The notes beneath the pieces were generated by a model. That model was not told the origin of the DNA. It saw only the letters and a program-made list of their open reading frames with translations, and did not search any database. A DNA stretch of 64,000 nt from a virus. The stretch covers positions 1 to 64,000 of IMG/VR virus record IMGVR_UViG_3300024352_000023. One strand, given 5' to 3'. Made by a program: the position numbers and the translations under genes. Positions 1,527 to 60,143 of this stretch are shown one piece after another. Position 1 is the first letter of the stretch. Each line of letters opens with the position of its first letter.

Positions 1527-2234
1527 ATGGCTGGCCCTTCCCTTTACTTAGGACGCATTGGTTCCACTGGAACATCAACGGCACCTCATGCGCATTGGGA
1601 GGTCATGAAAGACGGGAAACGCTTCCCGTTATCTCAGGCACGCTCTGATATTGGTCAATATTTACAATTTCGTTTACCAAACCAAGAGTCTTGGCAATCG
1701 CTGTATTCAAAACAAGGTAATGACTTTGTTCTGAATCCAGCTGCTACTTTAACTAGCCCCATGGGGATGCGCAAACATCCAGTTCATGGTGACATGCGTG
1801 AACACATGGGAGAAGATTATGGTGGCTTTCCAGAAGGTACGCAGCTTCGTTTTCTTGGGCAAGGTTCAGTTGCTACTCATGCCAACCGAGGTGGTGCTGG
1901 TAATGTTTCTAGCCTGCGTACAGGGCCTTATGAACTGCAGACCTTCCACCTGAGTGAATTACCTGGAGCATCCACAACACGGGGTAAAGTTCAGCAAGAT
2001 CAAACTGGAACAACTGCAACAACTGCAGAGGGAGAGGAAGAAGTTACCGGTGACGCTTTTGATGATTTACTAAATTCTTATATTGAGAATCAGTTAATGC
2101 AACAGTTGATTCAACAATCAACAGCAAAGGCGCAATCGCCGTTTGAGAAGTTCTCTCAGCTGTTAACAATGTTCCCAACAGGGGCAATGGCCAATCCTCT
2201 GACGGATCCAAAACAACAGCAGAAGGCCGGTTAA
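1527..2234 (+). CDS. Circularly permuted M23-type peptidoglycan endopeptidase
   Basis: The 235-residue protein holds all M23 (LytM) signature blocks but in swapped order. The normally C-terminal block comes first (residues 11-25: IGSTGTSTAPHAHWE, with the HxH zinc/catalytic pair H21/H23). The normally N-terminal blocks follow: SPMGMRKHP (77-85), HMGEDYG (93-99, ligands H93 and D97), then FHLS (140-143). A Gln-rich C-terminal tail follows. M23 enzymes are zinc endopeptidases that cut peptide crosslinks. A virion-associated DNA-injection lysin is likely. A terminator just upstream excludes a missing 5' extension. Confidence 0.7.
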   Translation: MAGPSLYLGRIGSTGTSTAPHAHWEVMKDGKRFPLSQARSDIGQYLQFRLPNQESWQSLYSKQGNDFVLNPAATLTSPMGMRKHPVHGDMREHMGEDYGGFPEGTQLRFLGQGSVATHANRGGAGNVSSLRTGPYELQTFHLSELPGASTTRGKVQQDQTGTTATTAEGEEEVTGDAFDDLLNSYIENQLMQQLIQQSTAKAQSPFEKFSQLLTMFPTGAMANPLTDPKQQQKAG

Positions 2235-3970: not shown

Positions 3971-4654
3971 ATGGCACCAAGGACCGTACAACAACTCTTT
4001 AATCTCAAACCGGAAGAGCTTAATGCCCTTACGGTTCTTTCGGGTCTGGAAGGTTTCCGGGGCGAAGGAGGACGTGATGTTGCTGCTGTTGCAGCCAACG
4101 TTTTGGCACGTCGATTAAAAGGTAATTGGGGCGGTGTTGACATTCGTAACATCGCAAAAGCACCTGGTCAATACGAAGCTGTTTTCAATTACTCAATGGA
4201 ACAGCTTGCAGACCCAGCGTTTGCAGCTCGTGTATTAGGTGGAGAAGCGGAATTCAAACGCCTCCGCGATATTGTCAACAATCCCAACGTTGTTGGTGAA
4301 GAGTTCAAAAAAGCAAAAGGTGCTCAATCGTTCCGTGGCGTTGCCGCTTACGGAAACAGGAAACCTACTGATTACACACCGGTTCCAGGTAGAAGCAACT
4401 TCTACTTCAATCCCCTGGATCCAACCACATATCAAAAAGGTGTCAACATCTTTGGTGCGACCAACGTCGCTGCCCAACCTCCTGTACAACAAGCAAAGCC
4501 AAAACCCAAGGCTCAAGACCTTGCGGGTCAAAATCCAGCGTTGTTGTCAATGGCACAGCAGTTGTTTGCACCTTTAGTTGCACCTTCCCCTTCCAGTGGT
4601 CCGTTTGATGCTTTCACCAAAGCATTAACTCGCTTTGCCACTTTGGGACAATAA
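3971..4654 (+). CDS. SleB/Hydrolase_2-like cell-wall hydrolase
   Basis: The N-terminal ~100 residues resemble the SleB lytic transglycosylase fold: GFRGEGGRDVAAVAANVL carries the acidic catalytic position (Glu of RGEG), followed by NIAKAPGQYEAV, matching the family's Gln-Phe/Tyr motif. A Pro-rich C-terminal tail (residues ~170-227) resembles virion attachment linkers. SleB-type enzymes cleave muramyl glycan strands. With the M23-like gene nearby, this suggests a two-enzyme virion lysin set. The 3' end overlaps the antisense HNH gene by 30 bases. Confidence 0.65.
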   Translation: MAPRTVQQLFNLKPEELNALTVLSGLEGFRGEGGRDVAAVAANVLARRLKGNWGGVDIRNIAKAPGQYEAVFNYSMEQLADPAFAARVLGGEAEFKRLRDIVNNPNVVGEEFKKAKGAQSFRGVAAYGNRKPTDYTPVPGRSNFYFNPLDPTTYQKGVNIFGATNVAAQPPVQQAKPKPKAQDLAGQNPALLSMAQQLFAPLVAPSPSSGPFDAFTKALTRFATLGQ

Positions 4655-5251
4655 ACCAATTTGTTTTGGTTTTATTTGTTTGCAGCCCTTGGAATCATGC
4701 CTTTCTTTTGAAAAGGCTTTTTCCAAGGGCCAGTCATTGTTTAATCTTTTTTGCATAGACTGCGGACTAATGCCTACTTCTTTTGCCCAATCTGCAATAC
4801 ACATTGTTTTTCCTTCGAACGTGTAAAGCCTGGTAGCACGTTTGCCACCTCTATTGCGTGTTTGCTCCTTGTGTGTCGCCCATCGACAGTTTTCTTTGCA
4901 GTAATTTTTATTGTTATCTATTCTTTCTAGCTCCATTTTGGGATCCAATTTTTTACCCATATCTTCAAGGAATAAACTGAAATTTTCCCAACGAGAATCG
5001 TAACTAATGCCACGACCTCCGTAACGGTCATAAGCGTTGTGGTTTTTATTATTGCAACGATTTTTCATTGCATTCCATGAGCTATATTCTGGCGTTCTAT
5101 CTCGATTTCCACCGTGTTTAAATGAGGCACAGTTTTTGGAACAAAAAGTATAACCACGTTTTTTTAAGCGTTTTCGATGCCATGCTGCAGTATTTCCCTT
5201 TCGTTCATAGAACTCGCCACAACAAGAACACTGAAAAGTTGTTTGTGCCAT
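4625..5251 (-). CDS. HNH homing-type endonuclease (208 aa)
   Basis: An N-terminal zinc ribbon (CSCC near residue 9, C..NC near 37-41) precedes the nuclease core, with ELERIDNN and NCRWATHKEQTRNR motifs as in phage HNH proteins. A basic, helix-turn-helix-like C-terminal region (ADWAKEVGISPQSMQKRL) probably binds DNA. It is antisense in a run of plus-strand virion genes and overlaps the 3' end of the SleB-like gene, as expected for a free-standing homing gene inserted between late genes. Confidence 0.8.
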   Translation of the reverse strand: MAQTTFQCSCCGEFYERKGNTAAWHRKRLKKRGYTFCSKNCASFKHGGNRDRTPEYSSWNAMKNRCNNKNHNAYDRYGGRGISYDSRWENFSLFLEDMGKKLDPKMELERIDNNKNYCKENCRWATHKEQTRNRGGKRATRLYTFEGKTMCIADWAKEVGISPQSMQKRLNNDWPLEKAFSKERHDSKGCKQIKPKQIGLLSQSGKAS

Positions 5252-12214: not shown

Positions 12215-12227
12215 TTTGTGTATGATT

Positions 12228-12249
12228 GGAGGTAATAATAGTTACCTCC
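12228..12249 (+). promoter_or_regulatory. Hairpin enclosing the Shine-Dalgarno of the lysozyme gene
   Basis: GGAGGTAA (12228-12235) pairs perfectly with TTACCTCC (12242-12249), which directly touches the ATG at 12250. The strong ribosome-binding sequence GGAGGT is thus in the 5' arm and its anti-sequence in the 3' arm. A TATGAT box lies just upstream (12221-12226). The design resembles the hairpin that silences T4 lysozyme on early transcripts. Confidence 0.65.
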
Positions 12250-12909
12250 ATGTCGGATCTTTCGCGTGCGATTAATCTAATTCGTAAACACGAAGGGTTT
12301 AACGAGAAGGCGTACTCAGATCCGGTCACAGGAGAAGAGCCCTATACCATCGGGTTTGGAACTCAGTTCTACCCCGATGGTTCTCCTGTTAAACGTGGTC
12401 AATGCTGCAGTAAAGAAAAAGCACTGGAGTATTTATTCCACGAAGCTTCTGTCATTGACACCCAGCTGATCAAGCTGAACCTGGGACTTGATGACAGCAT
12501 GCGTCAGGCCCTTATCTCCTTCATCCACTCCATCGGATGGGAGCCATTCCTGTACAGTAATGTAATCGATTGCATTGAACGGGAAGATTTCTGTGAAGCC
12601 ACCAAGGAGATGGGGCAGTGGATCTTTGATCAAAACCATTCCGTCGTCGGCACCCTTGTTGATCGCCGCCGGGAGGAAATTGCTTTGTTCCTTGCTGAAG
12701 TAGACGCCAATCCCTGGTCCTCCACAGAGATCTTGCTTGCTGCCTTCCGTAATTACACCGCTGCTCCCCACCAGGTGAGGGCAATCAGGTCCTTGGAAGA
12801 ACACATCAACCCTTACGTCCTGTCTAAGTTTGCCAACGACTTTGATATTGACGAGGATCCATGGTGCACCTTTGCGTCAGAGGAGCTCGATCTGCTGTTT
12901 AATAGCTAG
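12250..12909 (+). CDS. GH24 (T4-type) lysozyme, endolysin
   Basis: The catalytic triad of phage lysozymes is visible: Glu15 in RKHEG, Asp24 in YSDP and Thr33 in YTIGFGT. LVDRRREEIALF (about residues 137-148) is the conserved C-lobe helix. The product cleaves the MurNAc-GlcNAc bond of peptidoglycan. At 219 residues it exceeds T4 lysozyme, with an extra C-terminal region of ~60 residues of unknown role. No signal peptide is present, so it needs a holin; none is recognisable here. An in-frame upstream TTG would be inside the control hairpin. Confidence 0.88.
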   Translation: MSDLSRAINLIRKHEGFNEKAYSDPVTGEEPYTIGFGTQFYPDGSPVKRGQCCSKEKALEYLFHEASVIDTQLIKLNLGLDDSMRQALISFIHSIGWEPFLYSNVIDCIEREDFCEATKEMGQWIFDQNHSVVGTLVDRRREEIALFLAEVDANPWSSTEILLAAFRNYTAAPHQVRAIRSLEEHINPYVLSKFANDFDIDEDPWCTFASEELDLLFNS

Positions 12910-23221: not shown

Positions 23222-23620
23222 ATGGCTGATACTTTTTTTTGGCATATTATCAACCTCAAGAGAGAGATTGATACCGGTTTTGTTTCAAACGTTGTCTGGC
23301 AATTGAACGCAACACGACAACCCCTTGGAACAAATTTTGTTACTTCAACGCCTACAGGCGTGAGCGGAGAGGTTTTGGATAGTGTTACTTTCCAGGAAAA
23401 TAATGGTCCTGTTCTGTCCGCCTCGCAAGCAGGTTCCACGGATTTGCCAAAACCTAATCCAGATATTTTTGTTCCTTATGAAGATTTGACGGAGGCCTTA
23501 GTTGTTAATTGGATTACAGATTTTCTTGGAGAAGAAAATGTTTTAGAGTTAGAAAACGCTTTAAAAATTGATTTGGATAATCAAGAAAATCCAAAAACGG
23601 CAAATGGAACTCCCTGGTAA
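23222..23620 (+). CDS. Conserved-type phage protein of unknown function (132 aa)
   Basis: The protein opens with TFFWHIINLKREIDTG and continues with VVWQLNATRQPLG and YEDLTEALVVNWI. This pattern recurs in marine cyanophages as a small conserved protein (DUF7936-like from memory). It is compact and beta-rich with an acidic C-terminal helix. A structural role is inferred from neighbours. The last 17 bases overlap the endolysin start. Confidence 0.55.
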   Translation: MADTFFWHIINLKREIDTGFVSNVVWQLNATRQPLGTNFVTSTPTGVSGEVLDSVTFQENNGPVLSASQAGSTDLPKPNPDIFVPYEDLTEALVVNWITDFLGEENVLELENALKIDLDNQENPKTANGTPW

Positions 23621-24626
23621 TTATGAAATAAATTTAATTTATGCGGCAGAATATTTTAAAAAACTGCCGCATCAAATTAAAGCTTGGGAATGGCTTCAAA
23701 CAGCTGTTCCCAAGGATGTTATTGATGAATTTGCCAGGCGATACAGAGATGCTCCTAAACCAGCAGAACAATTTCCCAATACGTGGGAAGGTGTTCTTGC
23801 AGCAGCAAAGAAAGCCGGTGCAAAGTTCCCGGAATGCGTTGCTGCTCAGTGGTATTTAGAGAGTGCGCAAGGAAAACATCTTTCATGCACCCATAACTAC
23901 TTCGGTATCAAATCAAAAGATGGAGAAGGTTGTTACGTCTCAACTCAGGAAGTTTACGGTGTTCAGACAGTAACCATCAAAGATTGGTTTAAAGCTTTCG
24001 ATACGTTGTATGACTGCGTTGATTACCTGGTAACTCGTTGGTACAAGGACTACAAGGGATATAAAGGTGTTAATCGTGCTAGCAATCGTAATGAATGCGC
24101 ACGTTTGTTGAAAGAAGAAGGTTACGCTACTGATCCTTCGTATAGTACAAAATTAATCCAGATCATGGATCGCATGACTGGAACCCCTGGTAATACAGAT
24201 AAACCAAAATTCAATCCCTGGAGCCCATTCACTTATAAAGTCACACCTAACATTACGTATGGAGAGTTGACGCTCAACCAGGAAGCACGTCGATTCACCA
24301 AGCAATACCAATGTGACGTAGCACTAGAGCTCTGTCAGTTCCTTGAAAAAGCCCGTAGTGCGTTTGGTAACAAACCATTGATCATCACCAGTGCTTCTCG
24401 TCCGGAGCCCATCAACACACAAGTAGGTGGTGCCAAGAACAGCGAGCACACTTATAACGCACCATCCAAAGGAGCCGTTGACTTCTACATCGAAGGAGTC
24501 GACATCTATAAGGTGCAAGCCTGGTGCGACAAGAACTGGCCTTACTCAGTAGGATACGGTGCACCAAAAGGGTTTGTGCATCTTGGCATCAGGGAAGGAA
24601 GGCCTCGCGTACGCTGGGACTACTGA
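23604..24626 (+). CDS. Two-domain endolysin: glucosaminidase plus M15-type peptidase
   Basis: Residues ~45-195 match a glucosaminidase (FlgJ/GH73-like) domain: AAQWYLESAQGKH with the catalytic-Glu region, NYFGIK, then the FKAFDTLYDCVDYLVTRW helix. Residues ~220-340 match a DUF882/M15-like LD- or DD-peptidase: ITSASRPEPINTQVGG, KNSEHTY, GAVDFYI and GFVHLGI carry the His/Asp zinc set. It could cut both glycan and stem peptide. The ATG at 23604 is chosen over earlier non-ATG codons. Together with GH24, M23-like and SleB-like genes this phage has an unusually large wall-lysis set. Confidence 0.75.
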   Translation: MELPGNYEINLIYAAEYFKKLPHQIKAWEWLQTAVPKDVIDEFARRYRDAPKPAEQFPNTWEGVLAAAKKAGAKFPECVAAQWYLESAQGKHLSCTHNYFGIKSKDGEGCYVSTQEVYGVQTVTIKDWFKAFDTLYDCVDYLVTRWYKDYKGYKGVNRASNRNECARLLKEEGYATDPSYSTKLIQIMDRMTGTPGNTDKPKFNPWSPFTYKVTPNITYGELTLNQEARRFTKQYQCDVALELCQFLEKARSAFGNKPLIITSASRPEPINTQVGGAKNSEHTYNAPSKGAVDFYIEGVDIYKVQAWCDKNWPYSVGYGAPKGFVHLGIREGRPRVRWDY

Positions 24627-59402: not shown

Positions 59403-60143
59403 TTACGATTCAACTGTTAACAATTGAATGTTGTAATGTTTGATCCATTCCACCAGCTTTGCTGTGGCTTCTGGTGACTCCAGACCAATGCATCCACTGG
59501 TACCGGACTCACCGTTGAGTTTGCCCCAGCTTGGATCTTGGTGGAAGCCAAGGGCTGAACGGTTGGTGTTGAATAAAGGAATCACTGGTACCCAGAATCC
59601 TTTACCAAGTTCTGGATCATCGAATGGTGCACGGGCAATGCCGTACCGATCGATGGAGTATGTGCCGATGGGCAGTGGTGATTTGTTGCCAGCAATGTTG
59701 CGATTCGCTGTTTGCTTAGAGGCACGTCCTGTTAGAGCAGGCATGCTATCCAGGACTTGACCGTTGGCAACCAACTGTAGTTTCCAGATTGGATCCTTGG
59801 TTTGCTTAACGGTCTCCTTGGTGCGAATCAGCAACAGCTTTGCTGACGGACGATTGCGTGCAGGTGGGATGGGTACATTGTTCTTGAATTGGATCTCAGG
59901 ACGCTCGGAGCCTGGCTCTGGTGGGGCACCAGGGGTTGGTGTGGCATCGAGGGGTAGCATCCCATCAGGGACGCTGCGAGCCATATCACCAGGCCCTTGC
60001 TCTAGAGGTTGTGAGTACATCAATGAACGCAAGTGATCTTGCTGTTCATTGTGATGAGTAACCATGTTGTTGATGTTGTGGACTGCAACGGCAGATCCAA
60101 CACCAAGTGCAGTTGAGATGAGTGCAATCATTGGTAGTTTCAT
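59403..60143 (-). CDS. Membrane-anchored L,D-transpeptidase (YkuD family)
   Basis: An N-terminal hydrophobic segment (MIALISTALGVGSAVAV, residues 5-21) anchors or exports the protein. A Pro-rich linker (~45-98) leads to the catalytic domain with GTYSIDRYG, LGFHQDP (His201) and SGTSGCIGL (Cys218), the HX..SxGC active site. Such enzymes make 3-3 peptidoglycan crosslinks or attach proteins. A phage-encoded copy is unusual. It is followed by two further exported proteins in overlapping or near-contiguous genes. Confidence 0.8.
   Translation of the reverse strand: MKLPMIALISTALGVGSAVAVHNINNMVTHHNEQQDHLRSLMYSQPLEQGPGDMARSVPDGMLPLDATPTPGAPPEPGSERPEIQFKNNVPIPPARNRPSAKLLLIRTKETVKQTKDPIWKLQLVANGQVLDSMPALTGRASKQTANRNIAGNKSPLPIGTYSIDRYGIARAPFDDPELGKGFWVPVIPLFNTNRSALGFHQDPSWGKLNGESGTSGCIGLESPEATAKLVEWIKHYNIQLLTVES

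Follow-up and report, generated by a model that had tools for sequence, protein, structure and literature searches.

M23 peptidases are among the best-studied families of peptidoglycan-cutting enzymes. In canonical members of the family (PF01551; solved examples are 3slu, 6muk, ShyA 6u2a/6ue4, Csd3 4rny, and LytM 2b44) a block carrying the zinc motif HxGxD precedes a block carrying the HxH motif. The protein described here (the window protein, the window being the whole 64,000-nucleotide stretch of viral DNA that was analyzed) has the same two blocks and the same five active-site positions, but the order of its blocks is reversed, its termini lie in the FHLS/GSTG loop, a hairpin is partly lost, and a linker has been added at residues 41–69. 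A permuted cell-wall-hydrolase fold has been reported for the NlpC/P60 (LRAT/YaeF-like) hydrolases (PMC6403190), but these have a cysteine hydrolase fold that is unrelated to M23. We found no paper on point for permuted M23 or LytM domains in the open-access literature, and although the catalytic family is known, the permuted topology is apparently undescribed. A first-pass annotation of the window had called permuted metallopeptidases of this family unusual; the window protein is no isolated case but belongs to a widespread family (see below).

Gene organization and circular permutation of the M23 domain

The window derives from a virus record of 83,145 bases, and the nearest annotated isolate at its start is Synechococcus phage S-EIV1 (74.6% over positions 1–1534). 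Its features of interest are as follows.

1475–1496, + strand: terminator-like hairpin and T-run upstream of the M23 gene, followed by an AT-rich leader; recurs before most relatives
1527–2234, + strand: permuted M23 peptidase gene, ATG start, 235 aa
1527–1646, + strand: residues 1–40, the canonical C-terminal M23 block (IGSTGTSTAPHAHWEV...), now N-terminal, with predicted catalytic H21 and zinc ligand H23 (Pfam M23 positions 69–93 match residues 8–32; hhalign to canonical 89–122)
1647–1733, + strand: residues 41–69, linker that bridges the C and N termini of canonical M23 (an insertion left unaligned against the doubled profile)
1734–1982, + strand: residues 70–152, the canonical N-terminal M23 block (SPMG.R, HMGED, FHLS), with predicted zinc ligands H93 and D97 and catalytic H141 (hhalign to canonical 1–83, E 4e-17; invariant columns)
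1983–2231, + strand: residues 153–235, exchangeable C-terminal tail, disordered for the most part, in which two helices are predicted (176–199 and 205–215)
3971–4654, + strand: neighboring ORF, probably lysozyme/hydrolase-like, with a C-terminal tail similar to the M23 one; its enzyme type is sub-threshold in this genome

Two further genes of the window are on the opposite strand. An HNH endonuclease-like gene (4625–5251, − strand) overlaps the 3′ end of the neighboring ORF, and an ORF at 59403–60143 (− strand) contains a YkuD-type L,D-transpeptidase domain (E 1.5e-8), a kind of cell-wall enzyme that phages seldom encode.

The open frame of the M23 gene is 237 aa long, with an in-frame stop two codons 5′ of the ATG, and the start codon recurs, together with the hairpin/T-run and leader, in most relatives. 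A missing 5′ half or a frameshift is rejected by the upstream stop and the conserved start. The first-pass annotation had ruled out a lost 5′ half by pointing to the terminator and leader, and its conclusion stands; taken alone, the terminator is not above chance in a scan that found one where 1.5 are expected. That annotation had noticed a single locus, which might suggest a truncated or misassembled gene whose true 5′ half has been lost, but the same order, start, and leader are present in dozens of independent contigs and one cultured phage, and the canonical N-terminal block is present downstream. We give an artefact of this kind practically no credence.

The motifs of the ORF run in the order STGTSTAPHAHWE (residues 13–25), GMRKHPVHGDMREHMGEDYG (80–99), and FHLS (140–143), placing the HxH block ahead of the HxGxD/FHLS block just as the first-pass annotation had read them. 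The predicted zinc and catalytic residues are each present once, as it had also stated, and each is a single codon: H21 (1587–1589), H23 (1593–1595), H93 (1803–1805), D97 (1815–1817), and H141 (1947–1949). The zinc motif HxGxD, the HxH motif, the catalytic histidine of the HLS strand, and significant profile similarity identify the product, by its sequence, as an M23 homologue. A phmmer search of the PDB matches both blocks in 3slu (E 1e-9) and 6muk, in the order opposite to that of the ORF; query residues 67–146 align with 218–299 of the 3slu chain, and residues 8–32 with 311–335. The solved chains of 3slu, 6muk, and ShyA all have the blocks in canonical order in the alignments, unlike the window protein.

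The permuted family was compared by hhalign with a canonical reference alignment of 64 bacterial M23 sequences. Against the single canonical profile there are two crossed matches, residues 70–152 to positions 1–83 (E 4e-17) and residues 1–40 to positions 89–122 (E 2e-11). When the canonical profile is doubled head-to-tail there is one collinear match spanning residues 1–152 (E 1e-26), interrupted by one insertion that corresponds to the linker, and the window's own subgroup alone gives such a match with E 1e-20. A single collinear match to a doubled profile is the standard signature of circular permutation, and since a joint match of the halves requires the doubled canonical profile, the M23 ORF is circularly permuted. 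The Pfam M23 profile (PF01551) covers only residues 8–32 (profile positions 69–93) and scores 25.9 bits against a cut-off of 28.7, because the permutation splits the domain; a subtype represented by locus L256 passes the cut-off with 38.5 bits, in two stretches.

The new termini fall between the FHLS strand and the GSTG-HxH strand, and the V-x-VG-xx-V-xx-GQ hairpin that lies between the halves in canonical M23 is partly lost in the permuted family. In the alignments the two halves have exchanged places, and a linker of 29 residues (41–69) connects the old C terminus with the old N terminus.

An AlphaFold2 model of the monomer (46 alignment rows, no templates) has a mean pLDDT of 81–97 in ten-residue blocks across residues 1–150, with low confidence in the tail, where helices are placed at 176–199 and 205–215. 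In a control with residues 58–152 alone and the same 46 rows the mean pLDDT drops to 54, and for the predictor the N-terminal block is therefore needed to complete the fold. The designation "circularly permuted M23 peptidase", made in the first-pass annotation, is thus supported by profile doubling, by conserved active-site positions, and by a confident single-domain model that needs both halves. Foldseek searches of the PDB gave no significant match for either the full or the half-domain model, because such searches depend on chain order and the model of the half-domain is poor; a negative outcome is what a permutation would lead one to expect but does not in itself support one. In BFVD, A0A510E7V3 and H6WFX6 (cyanophage S-TIM5) match the fold with probability 1.00.

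Both blocks would fold intramolecularly into the usual M23 site, with zinc on H93, D97, and H23, and with H21 and H141 as catalytic residues. The HxH block of one chain might instead complete the site of another, giving a domain-swapped or oligomeric enzyme, such as a dimer in which the ordinary M23 topology arises across chains, an alternative that the first-pass annotation had also named. A linker of about 29 residues could in principle swap, and AlphaFold was run on monomers only. The monomer model is confident, and the tape-measure versions described below have shorter linkers and keep both blocks together; these observations, while compatible with swapping, favor a site within one chain, and we regard the swapped arrangement as improbable.

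Relatives and conservation of the permuted domain

Two single-protein scans of viral contigs recovered 41 and 45 loci, and a later alignment scan added more. Classification by motif gave 220 loci with the permuted order, representing 107 distinct domains, counts that refer to the sequences fetched rather than to the whole collection; the motif pattern missed more divergent domains, such as those of L256–L265, that are permuted by eye. The canonical topology, with the HxGxD block before the HxH block, is absent from the sequences of the window protein and of the 107 distinct domains, which are the same-order homologues that the first-pass annotation had proposed searching for. A search of genome contigs with alignment A2 returned Acinetobacter prophages with permuted domains together with many canonical M23 proteins, the latter serving as the canonical reference, and the corresponding search of genome contigs with alignment A1 found nothing. 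The M23 protein of ACG-2014f has the canonical order.

Permuted domains occur both in cyanophage-like contigs, including that of the isolate S-EIV1, and in Acinetobacter/Moraxella tape-measure proteins. The S-EIV1 protein AHV82231.1 is syntenic with the window gene and has the permuted order and the same kind of tail, but has HLD where the window protein has HAH, and its annotation, 'peptidase M23 family', gives the family name only. Rows from S-EIV1-type contigs are 17–28% identical to the window protein, and a tblastn search with the window protein did not list the S-EIV1 version at E 0.01. In the tape-measure proteins of Acinetobacter/Moraxella phages and prophages the permuted domain is of the HLD type and is embedded in open frames of ∼700–1700 residues (some cut by contig ends), without a separate tail.

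Cyanophage S-TIM5 provides a further example in AEZ65701.1 (997 aa, annotated as a virion structural protein), which by its length and name we take to be the H6WFX6 protein. It contains GAHLHMEIR, then NHTGVDI, then LAHL, a permuted order (HLH...HTGVD...LAHL), and aligns collinearly with the doubled M23 profile (E 9e-8); unlike the window protein it carries a phage tail lysozyme domain at its C terminus. Ahead of the permuted domain, at about residues 434–457 of this protein (gene at L316:8129–11122), lies a remnant-like GINVKEGDKVEIGQIIG hairpin with E about 1e-4, similar to the one that the window family has partly lost. This hairpin could be a vestige of a permutation that arose through tandem duplication followed by loss, but the match is weak and we do not claim it.

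A FastTree phylogeny, built from 93 columns and with long branches, separates the stand-alone permuted proteins and those within tape-measure proteins into two groups. On the same 93 columns and with the same long branches, uniting all permuted sequences in one group, as a single origin would have it, is not rejected by an AU test (p-AU 0.90).

Across 46 aligned relatives identity to the window protein ranges from 17 to 91%, yet H21, H93, D97, and H141 are invariant in all 46 rows, and position 23, the second zinc histidine, is occupied by His in 22 rows and by Asp in the other 24. For the M23 part of the window protein compared with locus L003, dN is 0.044 and dS 0.85, a dN/dS of about 0.05. 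These alignments show strong purifying selection on the block order and the five active-site positions in many phages. Among the 107 distinct permuted domains position 23 (window 1593–1595) is Asp in 83, which may reflect a change of ligand from His to Asp.

Inactive hydrolase domains can persist in phage structural proteins, and replacement of the second zinc histidine by Asp in about half of the aligned relatives would fit a pseudoenzyme, in which the permuted fold, devoid of peptidase activity, would serve a structural role or bind peptidoglycan. Conservation of the five positions over so wide a range of identity and the low dN/dS of the domain argue instead for an active peptidase, and we think a pseudoenzyme improbable, to much the same degree as a domain swap.

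The C-terminal tail and its probable partner enzymes

The tail of the M23 protein is fast-evolving and exchanged. Within the window its best local match is the C terminus of the ORF at 3971–4654 (score 45, next ORF 19, 0/200 shuffles), which has weak domain matches only. In S-EIV1 the tail-partner match scores 54 versus 31 (0/200 shuffles), and 0/200 shuffles was likewise obtained at L012, L013, L016, L020, L021, L024, L027, L029, L031, L036, L075, L078, L079, L080, and L086. The two tails at L080 (3171–4001 and 4001–4654) have TFNPTALLTQAIFQ.P.YLG in common. Where the partners could be typed they are endolysin-like (PHROG 90, E about 1e-29) or SLT/lysozyme-like. No clear tail partner was seen at about half of the loci scanned, at many of them because of a short contig, and the tail likeness is modest in the window's own subgroup.

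At L085 (3554–4312) an M23-type tail, with 83% identity to that of L044 across 102 residues, is attached to another, unrelated N-terminal domain in the same genomic position; the upstream DNA is 82% identical, and L082 and L084 look like L085. These comparisons show, at the level of sequence, that the tail is an exchangeable module behind the permuted M23 domain. The replacing domain in the three loci looks M15-like by the motifs HSPTGYHPRGMAIDV...DTHVHL, an identity unconfirmed by Pfam, PHROGs, NCBIfam, and PDB searches. Exchange of M23 for a domain with zinc-peptidase-like motifs at the same locus suggests that enzymatic activity is what is exchanged, a further point against a pseudoenzyme.

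Proposed function and significance

The permutation is solid and widespread, and beyond it we infer a mechanism for its product. The ORF at 1527–2234 likely encodes a circularly permuted zinc peptidase of the LytM/MepM type that acts as a virion-associated peptidoglycan endopeptidase with a docking tail, its one-chain site, its cleavage, and its docking all belonging to the inferred part. The predicted peptidase would cut the peptide cross-links of cyanobacterial peptidoglycan. The tail would dock the M23 enzyme into the virion together with a glycan-cutting partner that has a similar tail, and the docked pair would open the cell wall as the genome enters instead of bringing about late lysis.

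Endolysins often contain M23 domains, and the PHROGs matches of the protein include endolysin families, as would be expected if it were a late-lysis endolysin instead of a virion-associated enzyme. The phage carries two other endolysin-type genes, a phage lysozyme at 12226–12909 and a glucosaminidase and M15 peptidase fusion at 23568–24626, and the M23 gene therefore need not serve late lysis. In S-EIV1 the syntenic gene is surrounded by hypothetical genes, some ten genes past that for terminase, the M23 tail resembles that of the neighboring enzyme, and permuted relatives sit inside tape-measure and virion-annotated proteins. A role in late lysis thus appears unlikely, if less so than a swapped or an inactive enzyme, and virion association is the reading that we prefer.

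For such a virion-associated enzyme we tentatively suggest that the tail is a shared virion-loading (docking) tag, a proposal that could well prove wrong. Each genome would tag a peptide-cutting enzyme (permuted M23 or M15-like) and a glycan-cutting enzyme (lysozyme or transglycosylase), and the matched pair would be loaded into the particle; the permutation would place both termini on a single face of the M23 domain, easing attachment of a tail or insertion into a tape-measure protein.

M23 profiles are order-dependent, and permuted members can fall below their cut-offs or receive a plain 'M23' label. The permuted M23 domain identifies a class of cell-wall enzymes in phages that are split or overlooked by standard annotation. 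A natural and widespread permutation shows which connections the M23 fold tolerates and offers alternative chain ends, and with similar, exchangeable tails it can be tested directly whether wall-cutting enzymes are loaded into cyanophage particles.
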